From positions 1-53,123 of the forward strand of contig DAIDKH010000026.1 in the NCBI GenBank assembly GCA_027450145.1: 53,123 nucleotides of DNA. The letters run 5' to 3'. Below are positions 1,017-19,345 of the stretch, one piece after another; within the stretch, counting starts at the first letter, position 1, and each line of letters starts with the position of its first letter. The position numbers and the translations under genes were made by a program. Under the pieces are notes generated by a model. That model was not told where the DNA came from. It saw nothing but the letters and a program-made list of their open reading frames with translations, and did not search any database. The DNA is from Chthonomonadaceae bacterium. Lineage in GTDB: Bacteria > Armatimonadota > Chthonomonadetes > Chthonomonadales > Chthonomonadaceae.

Positions 1017-4000
1017 TCACTGGGTGGGTACCTCCTCGTTCGCTAATCCCATAGAGCATATAATGCGCGGCTCCTGTCGCTGCACCTCTTCAATTGGCAG
1101 GCATAACTGTGATGTGCTGTAAAGTTCCACCGCTGCTTCTGCAAGCTCCTGTACTTGGGCCCGATGCCTCAGTAAAGCGTTGAACCGCTCAGTCGCCCTC
1201 TGTTTCAATGGGGAGCGAATCAGCGTCTCCAACACGCGCTTCACCTGCGCCGCCTCGTCAGATGCCGCCCAGAGAGTGCGCTGCCTCTCCTCGTCCTCAA
1301 GCAATTTCTTCAGGTGATCGTACACCCTCCTACGTGCCCCCGACGATTTTCCCAACGCGCCGGCGGTGCCAGTATCCTCCTGCAACATACTCGTAACCGC
1401 GCGGCTTATCAGCGCGTGGTATTCCGGAAGGCGCGGAAGCGCCGGAGTATCCCTGGTGCATTCAGCAGCACGTAGAATGGCGTACTGGCTTTCGGTCACT
1501 CTGTTTCGATTTCTGTCCACCCAGGCAAGGGCGTCGTTTCCCGCAGCAGTCTCAAGGTACACAAGCGCGCCCTCGGGTTGTGTTGGGGATGCCTTGTGCG
1601 GCCGCGTAGCATACACAACGTCCGGTAATGCTGGCACGATCTCCTTCAGCCTCGGGTCGGCAGCAATGGCATTGCTCCATACCTGCCAGGCGTAGGACGA
1701 AAGGTCCACTTCTGTGTCCATGTCATCGTCAAGTATGCCGGCCTGTTCGCTGTAGAGGTTATGCAGCATCTTCTGCTGCTGCTCCTCCTCAAAGAACTGT
1801 TCGTCTGTGCCCACCACCTCGGCATTCTCCTGCAGGCGCGCCATCAACCTGCTGCGCAGTTGTATAATTCGTTCCACCCCTTCGTCCGGTAAGAAAGAGT
1901 AGCAACGAATATCCGCAGACTGCTGCCCTATGCGGTCCACCCTGCCGGCACGCTGTATGAGCCGAATAATAGCCCACGGCAGGTCGTAATTCACTACAAT
2001 GCCCGCATCCTGGAGGTTTTGCCCCTCTGAAAGCACATCCGTCGCGACTAGTACGCGCAGTTGATTCTCAGGCGGATATTGTTCCTCCTTCCCATTGCTT
2101 CCCGGGGAGAATCTCCAGACAGCTTCGGTAGGATTACTAGAATTTCCATCCACGCTCTGCAGGTCATGTACTCCCATGTTCTGCAACGTGCATTCAAGGT
2201 ACAGCGCTGTGTCTGCATACTGCGTGAATACCAGTATCTTCTCATTTGGGTGGGTTTTTTGAATTAGTTTGTACAGCGCAAGTAATTTTGTGTCCTCGGC
2301 CGCATTCCACTGCGGGCACATTTGCAGGATACGTTGCAGGCTTTGGTTATCCTGCGCCAGATGGTCCTTGAGTCCAGGGTGCATCCATGCGGGCTGCAGC
2401 CACCGAAAGCGCTTTTCATAACGGCCGCGATAGAGGTTGTAAAGATTTTCCGCCTTCAGGTTCATACCCGCATCCACAGCCTCCGCGCCCTCCTCCAGTG
2501 CATCGCCTGGTATATCGATGTCCGGGTCGATGTCTTCGGCAGTGCTGCCTAACAATTCTGCATCCTGTGTACCAAGCGGCAGCGGGAGGTTTTGCTGCAA
2601 GGCGTAAATGTATACGGCATTTCGCAAAATGTGCCTGTGAACGCTGAGCAGAAATGCCTCTCCAGAGGATTCCAGGCGCTTAAAGAGGTTGGTGCGGCAA
2701 AAGCCCATCAGGCGCTTTCCTGCCCGTGAGAGATCAGCAAGTATCTCCTTCTGGTCCTGCGGGATGTTCGCTGGCGCTGCGGCCCGTTTGTAGCCATCAA
2801 GACCATACCTGGGCAGGTGCAAACTGTTGATACAATCGACTATTTCCTTTGAGTAGAGCATACGATACTGCCTGCCCGATGGAAATTGAATGTTACAGGG
2901 AATTCTGGCCGGGAACCAGGAGCGCTTGCCACTTGGCAGCTGTAAGTACTTTCGCCCTGGCACTACAGGCTGCTGGCACCTGCTGCAGATCCCCTGCTTA
3001 AAGTGCGCCTCGTTGCCGCATGCGGGACACTGCGCAAGCGCATAGTTCTCCAATATAAAGGTTCTGGTGCGCCTTACCATGAAGAGGCGGAGCAGCTCGC
3101 GCCAATCGTCGGGATGTTCGGAGAGTTCGAAGGCTGCCAAACAAGAGGGAGAGACCTCTTTGTCCGCTAGCTCGATTTCACCCCGCTCCCTCAAAAAGCG
3201 CTCCGGGCGCACTCCCAAATCCGCCTTCTCATCCAGAAATAGCCTCAACTGGCTGGAAAGGTCGAGGTACGATTTATTGTACGGCGTCGCTGTCAGCAAT
3301 ATGCACTTGCTGTTGTTTGTCTTTACATACTCCTGTATAGCGTGCCACGTTTTGCTCTTTCGACTGCGAAGGTTGTGGCTTTCGTCTAACAGCACAATTC
3401 GGTACGGCCGCGCATCCGGAAGCTCTTTTACAGCCTTGGAATAGGGCACAACTCTGGCCCGCAGGCGGTACTGATGGATGTACTCCTCCCACATGGGCAC
3501 CAGGTTTTTGGGGCAGAGTAACAGGGTTTCGTAGCCCATATCTTCTTCGAACAGCGCAGCAAGTGCTGCCGCCATATGTGTCTTGCCCAGCCCTACTACG
3601 TCCCCGATTATCACTCCGCCACGTCTATCAAGGTGCCTTGCTGCTATTTTCACGGCAGCTTCCTGATAAGCCAGCAATTTATCGGCCACCTCACGAGGTA
3701 GTTGGAAGTCGGCCATGCCGTCGCGTGCCTCTCGTGAGAGATGCCATGCCATTTTAAGGTAGATGTGGTACGGTTTTACCATGTCAGGCCTTGCCCAACT
3801 CTCTTCCAGCACCTTAATGAGACTTTGAGTGATGTCAATGCTCCAGCGGTCGTTCCAGCGGTTCTCAAACCACGTTTTCAACTTGCGCGCGGCATCCTGG
3901 TCCAGCACATCCACATTCAGCTCCCCCTGTCCGCTCAGGCCAGAAAATGTGAGGTTGCTGCTCCCCAGAAATGCGGTAATCGGGTTGTTGGGGTCGTCAC

Positions 4001-11874: not shown

Positions 11875-11932
11875 TTCCCGGGTGGTTGTATAATGACCCT
11901 AACCCGTTGAACTTTATTGGTTGGGAGAGAGA

Positions 11933-13261
11933 ATGGAAAACAGTGCTGGCACTTTACTCGCCGAGTTAGACCGCAAAACAGACCGGTGCATTCGGTGTGG
12001 ATTCTGTCTGGACGCCTGCCCGACCTTTCGCTTAACCGGGCAGGAGACACTAAGCCCTAGAGGTCGCATTTATCTAGTAAGAAGCTGGCGCGAGGGGGTC
12101 ATTAAGCTCGACAATAACGTAATGCATGCTCTAGACACATGCCTGGGATGTCGCGCTTGTGAGACCGCATGCCCGAGTGGAGTAGAGTATGGCTCCATAC
12201 TGGAACTGGCTCGCGCCCAGGTAGAAGCGGGCAACTTGAGAGCACCGCTACAGAAATTAGCGCGCCAGCAACTCCTTAGAGTATTAACAAACCCTGGAGC
12301 GCTATCCTTTACGCTAACGGCGGGCCGATATGCGAAGGCATTCACGAACGGACGAATGCCGTCAATAATCGCGCACGCACTGTCCGGTGTGACCGCTACA
12401 CCCCCGATGCTTCCGCAGGCTCATGGATCAGCCAACGACCGACCTTTGCCCGAGCGATCACCCGCACTCACAGCTAAACGGCACACAGTGGCCATTCTCG
12501 AGGGCTGCGTAATGCGCGTACTGTTTGCTGCCACCAACCACGCCACCGTACGCGTGCTGCAGGCAAACGGCTGCGAGGTTATAGCCCCCAAGTCTGTTCA
12601 ATGTTGCGGTGCTTTGCACATCCACGCAGGTCAGCACGAGGAGGCACTAGGTAAGTTCAAGGCGCTCATCGATAGCTTTGAGCCGTACATTGACGGAATT
12701 GACGCCATCGTCATCAATTCTGCCGGTTGCGGTTCCACACTACGCGAATATGGCGCCCTACTTGAGCACGACGACGACTATCGCGATCGGGCCAAGAAAC
12801 TTAGTGCCAAGGTGCGCGACATCTGTGAGTGGCTTGCCGAGATCGGTCCCGCGAAAATGGTTAACGAGATTAACGAGACTATTTCCTACCATGATGCATG
12901 CCATTTGGCGCACGGGCAAAAGATACGGGAACAGCCACGTTTACTCCTGCAACAAATACCAGGGATACAGCTCGTTGAAATGCAGGAGGCAGATACGTGT
13001 TGCGGAAGCGCAGGAACTTATAACATCACACAGCCAATCCTGGCTGCGCAGTTGCTTGCGCGCAAGATCGAACATATTCAGGAGACCGGCGCGACCACCA
13101 TTGTGACGGGTAATCCTGGCTGCCTGGCGTGGATTGAACAAGGATTAAAAGAAAAGGGTTTGCGTGTAAGAATCTGTCACCCCGTAGAGTTGCTCGACTA
13201 CGCCTACAGCCATCCATCTCAAGGTGAGTTAGAGGGGACCGAAACAAACGCAGTCGGCTAG
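11933..13261 (+). CDS. glcF: Glycolate oxidase iron-sulfur subunit GlcF
   Basis: This electron-transfer subunit of glycolate dehydrogenase works with the FAD proteins GlcD and GlcE and passes electrons to the membrane quinone pool. Two 4Fe-4S motifs lie near the N-terminus (CIRCGFCLDACP and CLGCRACETACPSG). Two CCG domains follow, with CCGALHIHAG and CCGSAGTYN. The ATG at 11933 has GGGAGAGAG directly upstream. glcD/glcE are not adjacent, so the subunit is encoded apart from its partners here. A lactate-utilisation LutA-type protein is the closest alternative, but that is shorter (~240 residues) than this 442-residue protein. Confidence 0.9.
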   Translation: MENSAGTLLAELDRKTDRCIRCGFCLDACPTFRLTGQETLSPRGRIYLVRSWREGVIKLDNNVMHALDTCLGCRACETACPSGVEYGSILELARAQVEAGNLRAPLQKLARQQLLRVLTNPGALSFTLTAGRYAKAFTNGRMPSIIAHALSGVTATPPMLPQAHGSANDRPLPERSPALTAKRHTVAILEGCVMRVLFAATNHATVRVLQANGCEVIAPKSVQCCGALHIHAGQHEEALGKFKALIDSFEPYIDGIDAIVINSAGCGSTLREYGALLEHDDDYRDRAKKLSAKVRDICEWLAEIGPAKMVNEINETISYHDACHLAHGQKIREQPRLLLQQIPGIQLVEMQEADTCCGSAGTYNITQPILAAQLLARKIEHIQETGATTIVTGNPGCLAWIEQGLKEKGLRVRICHPVELLDYAYSHPSQGELEGTETNAVG

Positions 13262-13281
13262 CCCACTGATGCTAGCCGACT
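13252..13281 (+). terminator. Perfect 11-bp hairpin at glcF end
   Basis: AGTCGGCTAGC pairs perfectly with GCTAGCCGACT around an 8-base loop; the left arm includes the glcF stop codon. A second 7-bp palindrome (CTCAATT-AA-AATTGAG, 13284-13299) follows at once. The T-run is weak, but the position between convergent genes supports a bidirectional terminator. Confidence 0.6.
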
Positions 13282-13317
13282 ATCTCAATTAAAATTGAGC
13301 CAAGACGATTAATCCCG

Positions 13318-13512
13318 CTAAGCTGGCTTGGGCGAATTCTTGCCGTGTGTCTCGACTCCATCCGCCAAGCGTGCATAGGTAAACGCTCGCTGAACGTGTG
13401 CACCCGGCGTAACGTTGGCGCTTGGTTGGGATACAAGCGCATGCTGACACAATATTAAGCCTGCCAAGGCTACTCCGGCTGCTATGAAAGACTTCAGGGG
13501 GAATGTTTTCAC
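13318..13512 (-). CDS. Small exported-peptide gene overlapping TPR regulator
   Basis: It encodes 64 residues from a GTG whose last two bases lie inside the TGA of the upstream sigma/TPR gene (GTGA overlap), with AAAGGA nine bases before it. The product has a short basic start (MKTFPLK), a hydrophobic core (SFIAAGVALAGLILC) and a plausible signal-peptidase site near VSQPSA, leaving a ~30-residue polar tail ending NSPKPA. No lipobox is convincing. Placement and architecture resemble Phr pheromone precursors that follow Rap TPR receptors in Bacillus. It could instead be a small secreted protein or anti-sigma-like peptide. No homologue is recognised. Confidence 0.62.
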   Translation of the reverse strand: MKTFPLKSFIAAGVALAGLILCQHALVSQPSANVTPGAHVQRAFTYARLADGVETHGKNSPKPA

Positions 13513-15059
13513 AGTGATTGTTCCTTTCCTAACTCTTCCTCAAGCCAATACCACCAGGCAATGAGGTCGCTGTCTCGAATTTGAGCAAGCGTTTGCAGAA
13601 GCTTTTGCGCGGGGCATTGAGCAGTATCATTCGACACCATCGCCTCGAGTACGCCTCTCGCTTCTATGTAGTATCTATCCTTAACATACGCTAAAATGAG
13701 GTTGCTAGCGCGCATTGGTGAGGGCCGCTGCATTGCCATTCTTGCGTAAAGCGTTGCACGCTCAATATTTCTATCGCGGTTCCTGCCTGAATCATACCAC
13801 GTTAGATAGATATCGGCCGCATTAGTAGCGGCAATATATCGCTCCGCTCCTGAGTCTGGCCTATCTATGATAGTAAGAAACAGTTCAAGGGCTTCCCGAA
13901 GCCTACCCAGCTGCATAAGTAACACACCGGCCTCGTTAAGAGCTGCGTAGAATGCTGGCTGAACATCGTGCGCTTCTCGGTAGAGCTTAATTGCAGCTTC
14001 CAGGTTACCGGCCCGCCGTTCACGGCGTGCGCTGTCATACAACATCTGTGCAGCTGCATCACCTGCACAAGGATTATCGTCGAGGGTGTAGGTGTCCATC
14101 ACGCGCATCATACGGCGCATTTCGGGAGTAGGCGGCTCCTGCGTGCGAGGCGCGTTTACTTCGTTAATAATTGCTTCCTCAACGTCTGGCGAGTCACCTT
14201 CGGAACATGCAGCGCGCTGCTGCCAGGTGTACTGAAGTATTCTCTCGAAGAGGCGAGCTTGACGATCGACGTTCCACCCCGTATTTCTGCGAACTTTTGA
14301 GGTCGGACGGCTGACACGCGGCTGCGCGATAATCTGAGAGTAAACATTTTCGCTGCCGCACTGCCGTGCCACCAATCGGGCTAATGCCGCACGAGCACGA
14401 CACACGTTCTGTCGTTCCCTATCTGTCTCAGGACCAACTGCTTCGCCGCGCTCACGACGTCGTTCGCGCTCCAGATCTAACTGAAGTGCGCTGTAATAGC
14501 TGGGCGAGAGCTGCTCCATCGCCTTTGACAGAGCAGCTCGGAACTCCGCCTTCTCGTCCTGTTCTATCAGGGCTTCTTCGGGTCGACTATCGCTCGAAGG
14601 GTCTGCCAGAGTGTCTCTCAGGCAAATGGCGTTATCACCCAGTGTGCTAAGCGGCTGATCTAAAGAGACGGTAGGTACCTCGTGCCGCGCCGCTCTCCCC
14701 TCATCACTCAACACGGACCTTATTGCCCGCGCCAGATAAGCTACTGGATCGGGAAATATCTTGCCCACTGCAGTAGCAAACGAATAAAGCTGCAAGGACG
14801 CATGCGACGAATAGTGCCGTACGGCCACTCGTGCCATCTTGATGCAGGCTTCCTCTAGAGCTGAATAAGCGTCATTCGCACTCATTCGTGCCGGGATCAT
14901 TTTGCCATCGGGCATCAATCTTGGGCTCGAAAGGTAGCTAACGGTACGGGCTCCATACTGAGAGAGAATAAGCTCAGCAGCGCCTAAAATGTCAGGCGCG
15001 ACAGTGCCGGCTGCTACGCCGGTTGGAGCTGATTTTACTCTAATTTCAAGTTGGTTCAC
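13509..15059 (-). CDS. Sigma-70-like protein with C-terminal TPR domain
   Basis: I prefer GTG at 15059, which has a strong GGGAGGGG four bases upstream; an ATG at 15113 would add 18 residues with a poor ribosome site. Residues ~60-135 look like degenerate sigma region 2 (FPDPVAYLARAIRSVLSDEGR). The phrase VSLDQPL...LRDTLADPSSDSRPEEAL resembles the linker before region 4, and QLSPSYYSALQLD...RQNVCRARAALARL resembles a region-4 helix-turn-helix. Residues ~330-510 are TPR-like (GNLEAAIKLYREAHDVQPAFYAALNEAG..., LGRLREALELFLTII). It may be a transcription factor whose activity is controlled through the TPR domain. The overlapping exported-peptide gene downstream suggests a ligand. Promoter recognition is unproven because region 2 is weak. 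Confidence 0.7.
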   Translation of the reverse strand: MNQLEIRVKSAPTGVAAGTVAPDILGAAELILSQYGARTVSYLSSPRLMPDGKMIPARMSANDAYSALEEACIKMARVAVRHYSSHASLQLYSFATAVGKIFPDPVAYLARAIRSVLSDEGRAARHEVPTVSLDQPLSTLGDNAICLRDTLADPSSDSRPEEALIEQDEKAEFRAALSKAMEQLSPSYYSALQLDLERERRRERGEAVGPETDRERQNVCRARAALARLVARQCGSENVYSQIIAQPRVSRPTSKVRRNTGWNVDRQARLFERILQYTWQQRAACSEGDSPDVEEAIINEVNAPRTQEPPTPEMRRMMRVMDTYTLDDNPCAGDAAAQMLYDSARRERRAGNLEAAIKLYREAHDVQPAFYAALNEAGVLLMQLGRLREALELFLTIIDRPDSGAERYIAATNAADIYLTWYDSGRNRDRNIERATLYARMAMQRPSPMRASNLILAYVKDRYYIEARGVLEAMVSNDTAQCPAQKLLQTLAQIRDSDLIAWWYWLEEELGKEQSL

Positions 15060-15692
15060 CGGTCCCCTCCCTATACACTCGAGAGTCTCCACTACTGTCT
15101 CATGAGTGTACATACGGAATAGACGCCCGTATGTGACAACTTGTTCGCGAACTTTGCAGTTATAAACTTAAAGTGTATTCAGCATTGGGCTAACACGACC
15201 TTGTGCGGCAGTAACAACGCGGGTATCAGTGCATTTCAGAAGGGATTGGTGTACATCTCACCACGAATTCGATTTCTTACGGCACAGCCCGGTCTACCTG
15301 CAGTCATGTGGTAAGAGTAGAACGTGCAGGCAACTAGCCTGTCATAAGTGATAAAGATGGCAGCACAAACCACCACATCCTTTAGCCGACAGTCGTAGCG
15401 GTACTGGTATGTAGACGATAACTCTACTACCTAAAAAATTATTAGGTTTATTATGGCAAGAACAACTCATTTGCGTGTATTCTGTTACCGGTTCACATCG
15501 GCAAATGAACGGTAACTCGCGCGGGGATCTTGACGCGGGTTCGGATTTGCGTGGAAACAACTTGGTAGGTTTTGTTGGACCAACAATTATCAGCTACCGT
15601 AGTGATGCAATGCGACAACTTAAAGCTCCATTTAACTGTCATGCTACACTATTGACTCGCGTCATCACGATGGGCGCATCTGGAAGGAGCAA
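15060..15692. other. Long gap between sigma/TPR gene and cinA
   Basis: This stretch should hold the promoters of both divergent genes. I see a small AT-rich stem (ACCTAA...TTAGGT near 15430-15450) and scattered AT-rich patches (e.g. 15160-15175), but no clear -35/-10 pair. A 73-codon plus-strand frame at 15475-15696 has no ribosome site and atypical composition, so I do not call it a gene. Confidence 0.4.
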
Positions 15693-16943
15693 GTGAAATT
15701 GCGAGCTGAAGTCGTTTCAGTTGGCACGGAGTTGTTGCTAGGGCAGATCGTAGATACAAATGCAGCCTATCTTGCGAAAGCACTTTCCGCGGTTGGAGTT
15801 TCTGTCTACCGCAGGTCTACTGTCGGTGACAATATGGATCGCCTCGTAGCGGCACTTACAACTGCCTTTGCAGACAACGATATTGTGGTCACAATTGGTG
15901 GCCTTGGTCCCACTTTAGACGATATCACCCGCGAGGGCGTGGCTAAAGCACTGGGTGACTCGCTAGTTCAGGATGACGCGATCGCCGCAAATCTCAGCAA
16001 GTTCTTTGCGGATCGCGGAATTCCCATGACCGAAAGTAACCTTCGTCAAGCAAGGGTCCCGGTTCACGGGAGAGCGATTGATAATCCGAACGGTACTGCT
16101 CCGGGTCTGCTCTTTGTGAAGGACGACAAAATTGCTATATGCCTACCAGGTCCTCCCAATGAGTTCATCCCCATGGTGGATGACTTCGTTACTCCGTACT
16201 TACTAGAAAAAACAGGTAACAGAGGCACTATTCGTTCGCGCATACTCAGGGTCATCGGGATGGGCGAAAGCAGTGTGGAGCAGATCGTTAAAGATCTAAT
16301 GCATGATGATAACCCCACGTTGGCTCCCTATGCCAAGATTGGTGAAGTTCACCTTCGAATTACAGCGCGCCATGATACTGCTGAACAGGCCGAAGAACTA
16401 GTGGAGGAGCGAGCGGCACTTGTTAGAGCGAGACTAGGCCGGCTGATTTACGGCGAGGACAATCAGACTCTTGAGCAGGCCGTGGTTTCATTGTTATTGG
16501 ATAACGGGAGTACGGTATCAGTGGCTGAAAGTTGTTCCGGAGGCCTTTTGGCAAAACGCATCACGGATATTCCGGGCAGCTCGAGGGTATTTCCAGCTGG
16601 CCTGGTTTGCTATAGCAATGCTGCGAAAGAAGACTTGGCCGGTGTCAACCCATCCACCATCGAAAAACATGGCGCCGTTAGCCACGAGGTCGCCGCAGAA
16701 TTAGCGTACGGAGTTCGCAAACGCTTTTCGACCACGTACGGGATAGGTATCACGGGGATTGCTGGTCCGGATGGCGGAACCGAAATGAAGCCAGTGGGCC
16801 TTGTTTTTATCGCTCTTGCAGATGCGCAAGGCTGCAAGGTAGAGCGTGCGCATTTACTGGGTTCCAGGTCGGTAGTTCGTACTCGTGCAGTTCAAACGGC
16901 ACTGAACCTTCTACGATTGAGCCTGCTTACGCAGCGGCACTAG
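15693..16943 (+). CDS. cinA: CinA-like nicotinamide-nucleotide amidase
   Basis: A 416-residue two-domain protein. The N-terminal molybdopterin-binding-like (COG1058) domain has VSVGTELLLGQIVDTNAAYLA and GGLGPTLDDITREG; family members hydrolyse ADP-ribose-type pyrophosphates. The C-terminal CinA domain (~255-410) has VAESCSGGLLAKRITDIPGSS and GITGIAGPDGG, the NMN deamidase active region that recycles pyridine nucleotides. GTG at 15693 has GGAAGGAG five bases upstream. The 3' end overlaps the convergent c-di-GMP gene by 17 bases. Confidence 0.95.
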   Translation: MKLRAEVVSVGTELLLGQIVDTNAAYLAKALSAVGVSVYRRSTVGDNMDRLVAALTTAFADNDIVVTIGGLGPTLDDITREGVAKALGDSLVQDDAIAANLSKFFADRGIPMTESNLRQARVPVHGRAIDNPNGTAPGLLFVKDDKIAICLPGPPNEFIPMVDDFVTPYLLEKTGNRGTIRSRILRVIGMGESSVEQIVKDLMHDDNPTLAPYAKIGEVHLRITARHDTAEQAEELVEERAALVRARLGRLIYGEDNQTLEQAVVSLLLDNGSTVSVAESCSGGLLAKRITDIPGSSRVFPAGLVCYSNAAKEDLAGVNPSTIEKHGAVSHEVAAELAYGVRKRFSTTYGIGITGIAGPDGGTEMKPVGLVFIALADAQGCKVERAHLLGSRSVVRTRAVQTALNLLRLSLLTQRH

Positions 16944-19137
16944 CCTGTGATGCCTCTATCATAGCGATGAAGGCCGACACTGCCCGTGGATCGAAATGCG
17001 AACCAGAATTGGCACGCAGGTAGTCTAGAACCTTTTCAACGCCCCACGCCCGCCGGTACGGCCTATCGGAGCGCAGTGCATCCCAAACATCGACAACAGC
17101 AAAAAGGCGGGCAGCAATAGGAATGGCTTCACCGCGCAATCCTTGCGGATAACCGGTGCCATCCCACTTCTCGTGATGACTGTACGGTATGTCTATCGCA
17201 GGCTTAATGAACGCAATATGGCGCAACATCTCGTAGGCAAGGACGGGATGCTTGCGCATGGTGGCGTATTCTTCTGATGTAAGATCACCGGGCTTGTGCA
17301 AGATAGCATCCGGTATTCCAAGCTTTCCAATATCATGAAGAAGGGCCCCCCATTTTACAAACAACACCTCCTCCTCGTTCATGCCTACAAACCGTGCGAG
17401 TTGTACCGTGAGGTTTGTTACCCGCTGGCTGTGCCCCTCCGTCTCTCGGTCACGCAGTTCCAACACCCCGGCCCAGGCTGTTATGGTGGCGTCATACGTT
17501 TCAATAAGACTGTCGTCAGTCTCACCCATGGTCTCCATTAGGTCAGATTCCTTTTGGAGCACTATTTCATGAAGGCACTCGGAATAGGCTGCCTCAATTG
17601 ACGCATTGACTCTGGTTTCGTGAAGTTCGTCACTTGAAATATCACCAAATACGGCCACTCTGTTGCGGCCACTCTGTTTGGCGTGATACAGAGCCTGATC
17701 TGCGGCGGTAACTAATTGCGACGGGGATGCAATCTCCCCCACAAGCTCGGCAACGCCAATGCTAATTGTGACATTTACAAGACGCCAGTCTGCCTCTGCA
17801 ATGGTGGTACGTATTCTCTCTGCGAGAACTCGCGCCTCTTCTACTGCTGCGCCCGGCAGGATGACAGCGAATTCCTCGCCACCGTATCGCGCACAAGTAT
17901 CCTGATTGCGTACACAAAGCGGGAGCATCGATGCGATCCGTCTCAGAACGTCGTCGCCCTCAGGGTGCCCATATCGGTCGTTGTAGCTCTTAAATGAGTC
18001 GACGTCCATAATCATAAGTGAGAGGGGCGCCCGTGAGGAGACCGCAGCGCTGTACTCTGTGCGCAGCACTTCCTGAAAAATACGGTGGTTTTTAAGGCCG
18101 GTAAGCCCATCGGTTGATGCCAGTAGTTCCAGGCGCTGATTAGTATGGTAGAGTTCGGCTCTGCTCTCGGCAAGCTCTCTAGCCTGTATCTCGGCGGCCG
18201 ATGCTCGGTCATTCAGTTGAACGGACAGTTCCGCTAGCGCCTTGTTTGTTTGCTCTAGTTGTACATTAAGTTCTAACAGTCGTCGACGCGAAATTGCCAA
18301 CTCCGAAACGTCTTGAATTGTGCCTAGAACCTGAGAGACACGCCCATCTGGAAGCCGCGTAAATACCGTGTTTCGGCAGTGCAGCGTAATCCACTCACCG
18401 TTGCGATGACGACCTCGAAACTCAAGATTAGCCACCGCGCCATCCGGCTGGTCGGCTAAGTTCTCGAGGTGAGCGCCGTACCGTGGAAGGTCATCGGGAT
18501 GAATTAGCTGGGATATCACATCGCTGCCCATCGCGATCACCTCATCCGCGCTGTATCCAAAAGTAGTCGCCTTGGATCGGTTAAGAAACACCGTCCGACG
18601 TTCTATCAGGTCGTACACATAGATCTGTACGGGCATCGCATACGATATCTTCTCCAGGAAATCACTCTGGCTTTTAAGCTCTAATTCTGCGTTTTTACGT
18701 GCCGTTACGTTAGTTTGAATGGCGATAAAATGAGTGATTTCACCGGAGGACTTGCGCACGGGGGTGATGTGCAGTTGCAGCCAGTAGGAACTTCGGTTGC
18801 GATGATAGTTGATGATCTCTACAGATACCGGCTCGCCTTTGTCTATTGCCTGCCGCAATAGCGCCCGTGTGGCCGGGTCAGTATCTGGACCCTGGAAATA
18901 TTTGCTTGGCCGCTGACCGATCATCTCGTTAATGGTGTAACCACACAGCTGTTCTGCAGCAGCGTTCATCAGAATAATCCGCTCGGAGGCGTCGGTGATA
19001 AGTATTCCATCATGCGTTACCGCGGCAGCAAGAGCGAGCAGATGACTGTTCGCAATTAACTGCTCAGTGGCATTAGATGCGGTTTCATCTATTTTCAGGC
19101 TGTCCACACCGTCGCTTTGAAACGCTAACTCCGACAT
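16927..19137 (-). CDS. PAS-PAS-GGDEF-HD-GYP cyclic-di-GMP signalling protein
   Basis: The order is PAS (~30-150), a second PAS/PAC (~160-285), coiled coil (~290-340), GGDEF (~345-510) and HD-GYP (~560-725). The cyclase motif YGGEEF is intact and preceded by an I-site (RNQD, five residues upstream), so product inhibition is expected. The phosphodiesterase domain keeps HDIGK, HHEKWDGTGYPQGL and VVDVWDAL. Both making and breaking c-di-GMP are therefore possible from one cytosolic polypeptide; no membrane segment or receiver domain is seen. ATG 19137 is chosen over a TTG six bases upstream. Confidence 0.93.
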   Translation of the reverse strand: MSELAFQSDGVDSLKIDETASNATEQLIANSHLLALAAAVTHDGILITDASERIILMNAAAEQLCGYTINEMIGQRPSKYFQGPDTDPATRALLRQAIDKGEPVSVEIINYHRNRSSYWLQLHITPVRKSSGEITHFIAIQTNVTARKNAELELKSQSDFLEKISYAMPVQIYVYDLIERRTVFLNRSKATTFGYSADEVIAMGSDVISQLIHPDDLPRYGAHLENLADQPDGAVANLEFRGRHRNGEWITLHCRNTVFTRLPDGRVSQVLGTIQDVSELAISRRRLLELNVQLEQTNKALAELSVQLNDRASAAEIQARELAESRAELYHTNQRLELLASTDGLTGLKNHRIFQEVLRTEYSAAVSSRAPLSLMIMDVDSFKSYNDRYGHPEGDDVLRRIASMLPLCVRNQDTCARYGGEEFAVILPGAAVEEARVLAERIRTTIAEADWRLVNVTISIGVAELVGEIASPSQLVTAADQALYHAKQSGRNRVAVFGDISSDELHETRVNASIEAAYSECLHEIVLQKESDLMETMGETDDSLIETYDATITAWAGVLELRDRETEGHSQRVTNLTVQLARFVGMNEEEVLFVKWGALLHDIGKLGIPDAILHKPGDLTSEEYATMRKHPVLAYEMLRHIAFIKPAIDIPYSHHEKWDGTGYPQGLRGEAIPIAARLFAVVDVWDALRSDRPYRRAWGVEKVLDYLRANSGSHFDPRAVSAFIAMIEASQASAAA

Positions 19138-19345
19138 TGGCAACTAAAGTCCTATTCTGAATATTGCTAATTTAGCGTGTGCGTTCCAACAAAAGTTGGG
19201 TAACGCCGAATTGATAGGCAAACGTACAACCTCACCAAACTTGTAAACCAATCGTAACCTTATATATCTCGGACCTATTATCGGCCACCGCCCTCTCCAT
19301 ATTTAGGATTGCGGCGTATGATATAATGAATTGAGGTCATTCCTA

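Follow-up and report, generated by a model that had tools for sequence, protein, structure and literature searches.

A TPR-containing, sigma-like regulator coupled to a small gene for a predicted exported peptide in Chthonomonadales-type Armatimonadota: a candidate peptide-signalling pair

A tetratricopeptide-type (TPR) regulator whose stop codon overlaps the start of a small gene raises the question of whether the two genes form a peptide-signalling pair, as had been proposed by a sequence-only reading of the locus. The pair resides in a DNA stretch of 53,123 nucleotides (the window in the following), which is part of a 4.14-Mb assembly representing a diderm member of the Chthonomonadales-type Armatimonadota. 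To answer this question, the locus was compared with its counterparts in the order and in the phylum.

Layout of the pair and its conservation

The features identified are listed in Table 1. Within the window, the GTG start of the small gene lies inside the TGA stop of the regulator (GTGA), and a ribosome site (AGGAAAGGAAC) is located immediately upstream of it, so that the overlap, the 64-residue gene and the ribosome site described previously were all recovered. Moreover, both in the window and in many other genomes, the final regulator codons (GGAAAGGAA, encoding 'GKE') serve at the same time as the small gene's ribosome site. The previously assumed regulator start at GTG 15059 was supported by the congener G001, featuring an in-frame TAA upstream of the corresponding point, and by the onset of conservation at this position. 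The pair is flanked by a convergent gene (11921-13261) and a divergent gene (15693-16943) and, based on the hairpin following the small gene, looks like a complete two-gene operon. Further upstream, a 738-residue protein encoded at 16927-19143 (-) was judged by eye to contain PAS-like, GGDEF-like and HD-GYP-like segments.

Table 1. Coordinates of the regulator/small-gene pair in the window and of its distant counterpart (G073)
Feature	Position	Strand	Remarks
Regulator	13509..15059	(-)	516 aa from GTG 15059; longest ORF from 15113; degenerate ECF-sigma-like half and C-terminal TPR
Sigma-like half of the regulator	14328..14990	(-)	Regions 2.3 to 4.1 recognisable; hhalign vs ECF sigma factors E 3e-6; sigma70-ECF E 2e-4
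Five TPR hairpins of the regulator	13515..14057	(-)	Pfam and AlphaFold
Small exported-peptide gene (predicted)	13318..13512	(-)	64 aa; GTG start overlaps the TGA of the regulator
Signal-peptide-like N-terminus of the small protein	13429..13512	(-)	Basic start; 15-residue core with mean hydropathy 2.37
Heptapeptide DGVETHG (order consensus DGQETHG), followed by tail KNSPKPA	13342..13362	(-)	Motif in all homologous loci
Promoter-like element TGTCAC-N16-CGTATG, conserved	15111..15138	(-)	About 50 nt upstream of the regulator start
Terminator-like hairpin just past the small gene	13251..13282	(-)	12 bp
Divergent TPR regulator / small ORF of G073	L066:1477-2778 / 1305-1463	(-)	Other family of the phylum

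The regulator was detected as a single-copy gene in 29 out of 31 genomes of the order, the remaining two being 64% and 78% complete. Among the 260 genomes of the phylum from outside the order, it was detected in one distant relative only (G073). An attempt to delineate a wider regulator family in the phylum by means of a C-terminal profile was abandoned, as G073 was the sole clear relative recovered, the remainder being generic TPR proteins. In all 29 loci of the order, the regulator is joined to a small ORF encoding 51-80 aa and starting between -29 and +9 nt from the regulator stop. A homologue devoid of a downstream small ORF, named beforehand as a refuting case, was encountered in 0 out of 29 loci.

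As a control for this coupling, genes encoding at least 200 aa were inspected for an ORF of 40-100 codons with a signal-like start within -30 to +20 nt of their stop. Across 21 loci, 19 out of 189 genes featured such an ORF; all 19 represented this regulator (G073 included), whereas none of the approximately 170 other genes did. The pairing is thus far beyond chance. Small ORFs are readily over-called, but a coincidental or misread ORF as the explanation is refuted by the comparative data, namely the control just described and the conservation in 29/29 loci accompanied by synonymous codon change, and its probability is practically nil.

Clustering of the ORFs surrounding 20 loci and those of the window revealed the regulator family alone to be common to all, the next clusters occurring in four loci, and no permease, modification, protease or transporter gene was conserved beside the pair. 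In the cultured species of the order, genes that are grouped in operons elsewhere among bacteria are known to be dispersed (PMC4959169). The pair represents a core trait of the whole order, kept together while the remaining neighbourhood is not.

The G073 regulator was recognised with an E value of 1e-64 and shares 26% identity in the TPR part; a sigma signature was not detectable in it. Its coupled small protein ends in ...FLILELGQPG (tail ILELGQPG) and not in DGQETHG, indicating that the arrangement outlives the peptide sequence. Since G073 is a single genome, its small ORF is recognised by position and signal character only.

The small protein and its heptapeptide

According to hydropathy and charge, the 29 small proteins start with basic residues followed by a hydrophobic core, the weakest core being that of L008 (15-residue mean 1.30), which is in line with the signal-peptide-like N-terminus proposed for the window (Table 1). 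The tail motif [DN]G[QVI]E[TS][HG]G was identified in 29/29 small proteins, with column entropies of 0 to 0.9 bits compared to mostly 2 to 3.7 bits elsewhere outside the start, and the linker between core and tail is essentially free to vary. Codons of the motif change synonymously while the residues stay, indicating that selection acts on the peptide. Hence, conservation does not extend over the whole length of the small protein, the signal region being kept in character only; the tail variation anticipated by the sequence-only reading was not observed, the tail being almost fixed. This distribution of conservation fits a peptide ligand, but lacks the species-to-species variation of Phr-type pheromones.

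The small proteins of families f2 and f3 end exactly with the motif. Members of family f1 possess a further tail after the motif, which is Gly/His-rich in some cases (GGKGGGHSHG, GGGGGNKGSGHWHA), and in G012 the motif is doubled, with its copies 18 residues apart. Deviating versions, read directly, are NGQETHG (G020 and G025) and DGQETGG (G027). A DNA scan with a pattern that does not cover these three genomes yielded a single motif site for each genome of the order, namely the pair locus, other matches falling into large unrelated proteins or other frames. Among these, DGQETHG in a large predicted beta-barrel protein of G008 was considered as a second motif site and judged to be a chance match, as was DGIETHG in large enzyme-like proteins (L095, L096) and in other frames. 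The G008 protein (L097:1060-5262 (-)) is a predicted outer-membrane beta-barrel of 1400 residues with an internal KDGQETHGFSRN, containing the exact heptapeptide.

The small protein yielded no convincing family match, and nothing matching was found in the phage records compared. Likewise, a literature search, the coverage of which left out most subscription papers, returned no match for the motif and no such pair in Armatimonadota.

The regulator and its promoter

The first half of the regulator matched the NCBIfam model sigma70-ECF with 21 bits, which is below the cut-off of 42.9. Profile-profile comparison (hhalign) with the ECF sigma factors of the same genome reached a score of 44, while 20 column-shuffled control profiles scored at most 22. 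The confident alignment spans region 2.3/2.4, the linker and region 4.1, where it stops; in place of the canonical helix-turn-helix of region 4.2, the regulator has one long helix and a second helix of the RQxxCRAR type, and AlphaFold predicted two long helices at this position. Judged by these profiles, the first half of the regulator is sigma-derived, its function as a sigma factor, including promoter binding, being putative owing to the degenerate region 4.2. The designation 'sigma-70-like' given earlier is therefore right with respect to the profile comparison (E 3e-6), and weak with respect to the family cut-off and region 4.2. In genome G000, 26 sigma70/ECF-type matches exceed the family cut-off.

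For the C-terminal part, the TPR domain proposed earlier was confirmed by a Pfam TPR_16 match (E 7e-7) and by an AlphaFold model (29 rows) featuring ten confident helices in five hairpins (residues 356-536, L003 numbering). The nearest solved folds are generic TPRs, and no RRNPP-type domain was among the Pfam families listed for the 29 regulators. In standard TPR geometry, the inner groove is formed by the A helices. Helix A of TPR3 (AATNAADIYLTW) and helix A of TPR4 (PMRASNLILAYVK) showed mean entropies of 0.50 and 0.43 bits, respectively, versus 1.10 and 1.69 bits for their outer (B) helices; with the sigma-like half averaging 1.4 bits, the two A helices are the best-conserved part of the regulator. 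They bear the invariant Asn residues 434 and 474. In other peptide-binding TPRs, Asn residues at comparable positions touch the ligand backbone. The G073 regulator retains both residues and differs around them. This pattern agrees with a ligand that is conserved within the order and differs in G073; TPR3/4 could also bind something else.

At receptor position 427 (L003 numbering; about 13842-13844 in the window), located at the start of TPR3 helix A, the six DG[VI]ETHG genomes have Glu without exception and the two DGQESHG genomes have Ser, while His prevails in the others, making it a candidate contact, for which phylogeny is a confounding factor. Co-variation of motif and receptor was dismissed as a line of evidence: the V/I variants of motif position 3 form one clade and hence provide no independent replicate of a co-change with the receptor. 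In an AlphaFold read-through model of the TPR part and the small protein (G013, stop codons read through), the motif was unstructured (pLDDT about 39) and did not dock; with only three fused rows, this outcome weighs neither for nor against binding.

Three congeners share a conserved block upstream of the regulator, which is otherwise isolated. A bipartite element, TGTCAC-N16/17-CGT[CA], recurs across the order at a consistent distance, 18 out of 29 loci scoring at least 10/12 compared to 0.9 expected from block-shuffled sequence, and several f3 genomes feature a GGAAC- or TGAAAC-type -35 element with CGTCTA instead. The TGTCAC-type element closely matches the ECF41 promoter signature, TGTCACA-n16-CGTC (PMC3426412), and the operon is thus probably transcribed by an ECF sigma factor; a Sigma70 consensus promoter scan found nothing. 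A genome-wide regulon of the element was also sought and discarded, there being no excess over the reversed control. TGTCAC-N16/17-CGTMTA was also seen just upstream of several genes for exported or outer-membrane proteins (L148, L160, L161 (sites near 1411-1500), L147, L150, L162 and L167), including similar large beta-barrel-like ones in three genomes of one genus.

A possible peptide circuit, its alternatives and known systems

Given that the two genes are linked and coupled, and given the signal-like start, the near-invariant motif, the conserved groove and the promoter element observed, we propose that they constitute a self-contained peptide-signalling unit, to which we assign a probability of roughly 0.5. 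The small gene would encode a pre-peptide leaving the cytoplasm through the general (Sec) export route, and processing outside the cytoplasm would release a free heptapeptide, DGQETHG (DGVETHG in the window), family f1 needing extra trimming past the motif. The heptapeptide would then be re-imported, probably by an oligopeptide permease; three genes for oligopeptide-binding proteins (SBP_bac_5) are present in the genome. Once lodged in the conserved groove on the inner side of the TPR domain, it may switch the sigma-like half between an inactive and an active state and thereby change transcription, while the tight translational coupling would keep receptor and signal proportionate. Points speaking against this proposal are the undocked motif of the read-through model, the missing RRNPP-type domain match, the lack of peptide diversification within the order, the additional trimming in f1, the absence of a conserved permease gene beside the pair, and the V/I variants being confined to one clade.

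As the motif is near-invariant across the order, species-specific quorum sensing is unlikely, and a shared condition is a likelier message than species identity. The heptapeptide might report the export or envelope state, or the total density of related cells. Its near-identity, unlike the situation in pherotype systems, suggests a shared cue, perhaps a cell-autonomous report of the export/envelope state. The fuller version of this proposal, namely an order-wide intracellular system of a diderm phylum, in which an exported and re-imported heptapeptide serving as a common rather than species-specific word is read by a sigma-derived TPR regulator of an origin separate from that of the Firmicutes RRNPP systems, appears plausible, with odds slightly short of even.

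Alternatively, the small protein may be an envelope product, the tail of which acts in the periplasm by metal binding or by docking to an envelope protein, with the regulator controlling its expression or sensing another ligand. The D, E and H residues of the motif, the Gly/His-rich tails of several f1 members and the ECF-type upstream promoter are in line with this explanation, and an invariant motif is more readily expected of a structural or chemical role than of a pherotype. However, it leaves unexplained the strict pairing with the regulator, which is kept though all other neighbours are lost, and offers no reason for the highly conserved TPR groove or for the different tail beside the divergent G073 receptor; we regard it as rather unlikely, with about the chance of one case in a handful. 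Still less probable is that the small protein stays uncleaved in the membrane as a single-pass partner, by which the regulator would be tethered or sequestered in the manner of an anti-sigma factor. In most rows, the core is hydrophobic enough to span a membrane (19-residue hydropathy means mostly between 1.5 and 2.7), and co-translation would favour complex formation, but in most rows the residues preceding the core are few and variable, leaving little cytoplasmic part for binding the regulator, and the basic start predicts an outside position for precisely the part that is conserved, the tail.

A ribosomally made, modified or antimicrobial-type secreted peptide under control of the regulator would agree with the short precursor, the conserved C-terminal core and the doubled core in G012. 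Such cores usually diversify, though, no gene for a modification enzyme, protease or transporter is conserved in the vicinity of the pair, and there was no convincing family match; this option is improbable by a wide margin. The peptide-signalling unit outlined above is the best-supported reading and is compared with known systems below.

Receptor-propeptide pairs of this kind have been described from Firmicutes. In the RRNPP/RRNPPA systems (Rap-Phr, NprR-NprX, PlcR-PapR and AimR-AimP), a TPR receptor is likewise adjacent and coupled to a pre-peptide of <100 aa, a short conserved peptide is located at or near the C-terminus, and intragenic duplication, found here in one case (G012), is a shared trait. 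The published signature comprises a propeptide of 10-100 aa at a distance of -60 to 400 bp and a receptor of 250-500 aa, validated for 285-473 aa (PMC10075063); spacing and propeptide length of the pair fit this signature, whereas the regulator, with about 516 aa, exceeds both receptor ranges. Further differences are the occurrence in diderm Armatimonadota instead of Firmicutes, the sigma-like output half without a canonical HTH, compared to HTH or phosphatase-type outputs, and the absence of an RRNPP-specific domain, HTH or Rap-type N-domain among the Pfam families listed for the 29 members. Moreover, Phr pheromones diversify, whereas the peptide of the pair is near-invariant over the whole order, with one other tail in the distant G073 lineage. 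The Rap-Phr-like pair envisaged by the sequence-only reading thus stands with respect to its layout (29/29 coupled, TPR), while RRNPP homology was not found and the tails do not diversify; the pair appears to work like RRNPP systems at the level of layout and is not filed as a member.

ECF41 proteins, the promoter signature of which resembles the element upstream of the pair, carry a C-terminal extension unlike that of the regulator. Closer in architecture is ECF42, in which a sigma-type N-terminal half precedes a TPR extension (about 200 residues) that is presumed to receive a partner (PMC8999054). The regulator also combines a sigma-type half with a TPR extension of about this size (residues 356-536), but differs from ECF42 in its sigma score, being under the curated cut-off, and in its region 4.2 devoid of a canonical helix-turn-helix. 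No exported peptide partner is described in the ECF42 review (PMC8999054), and the pair studied here offers a candidate type of activating partner for TPR-extended sigma factors such as ECF42.
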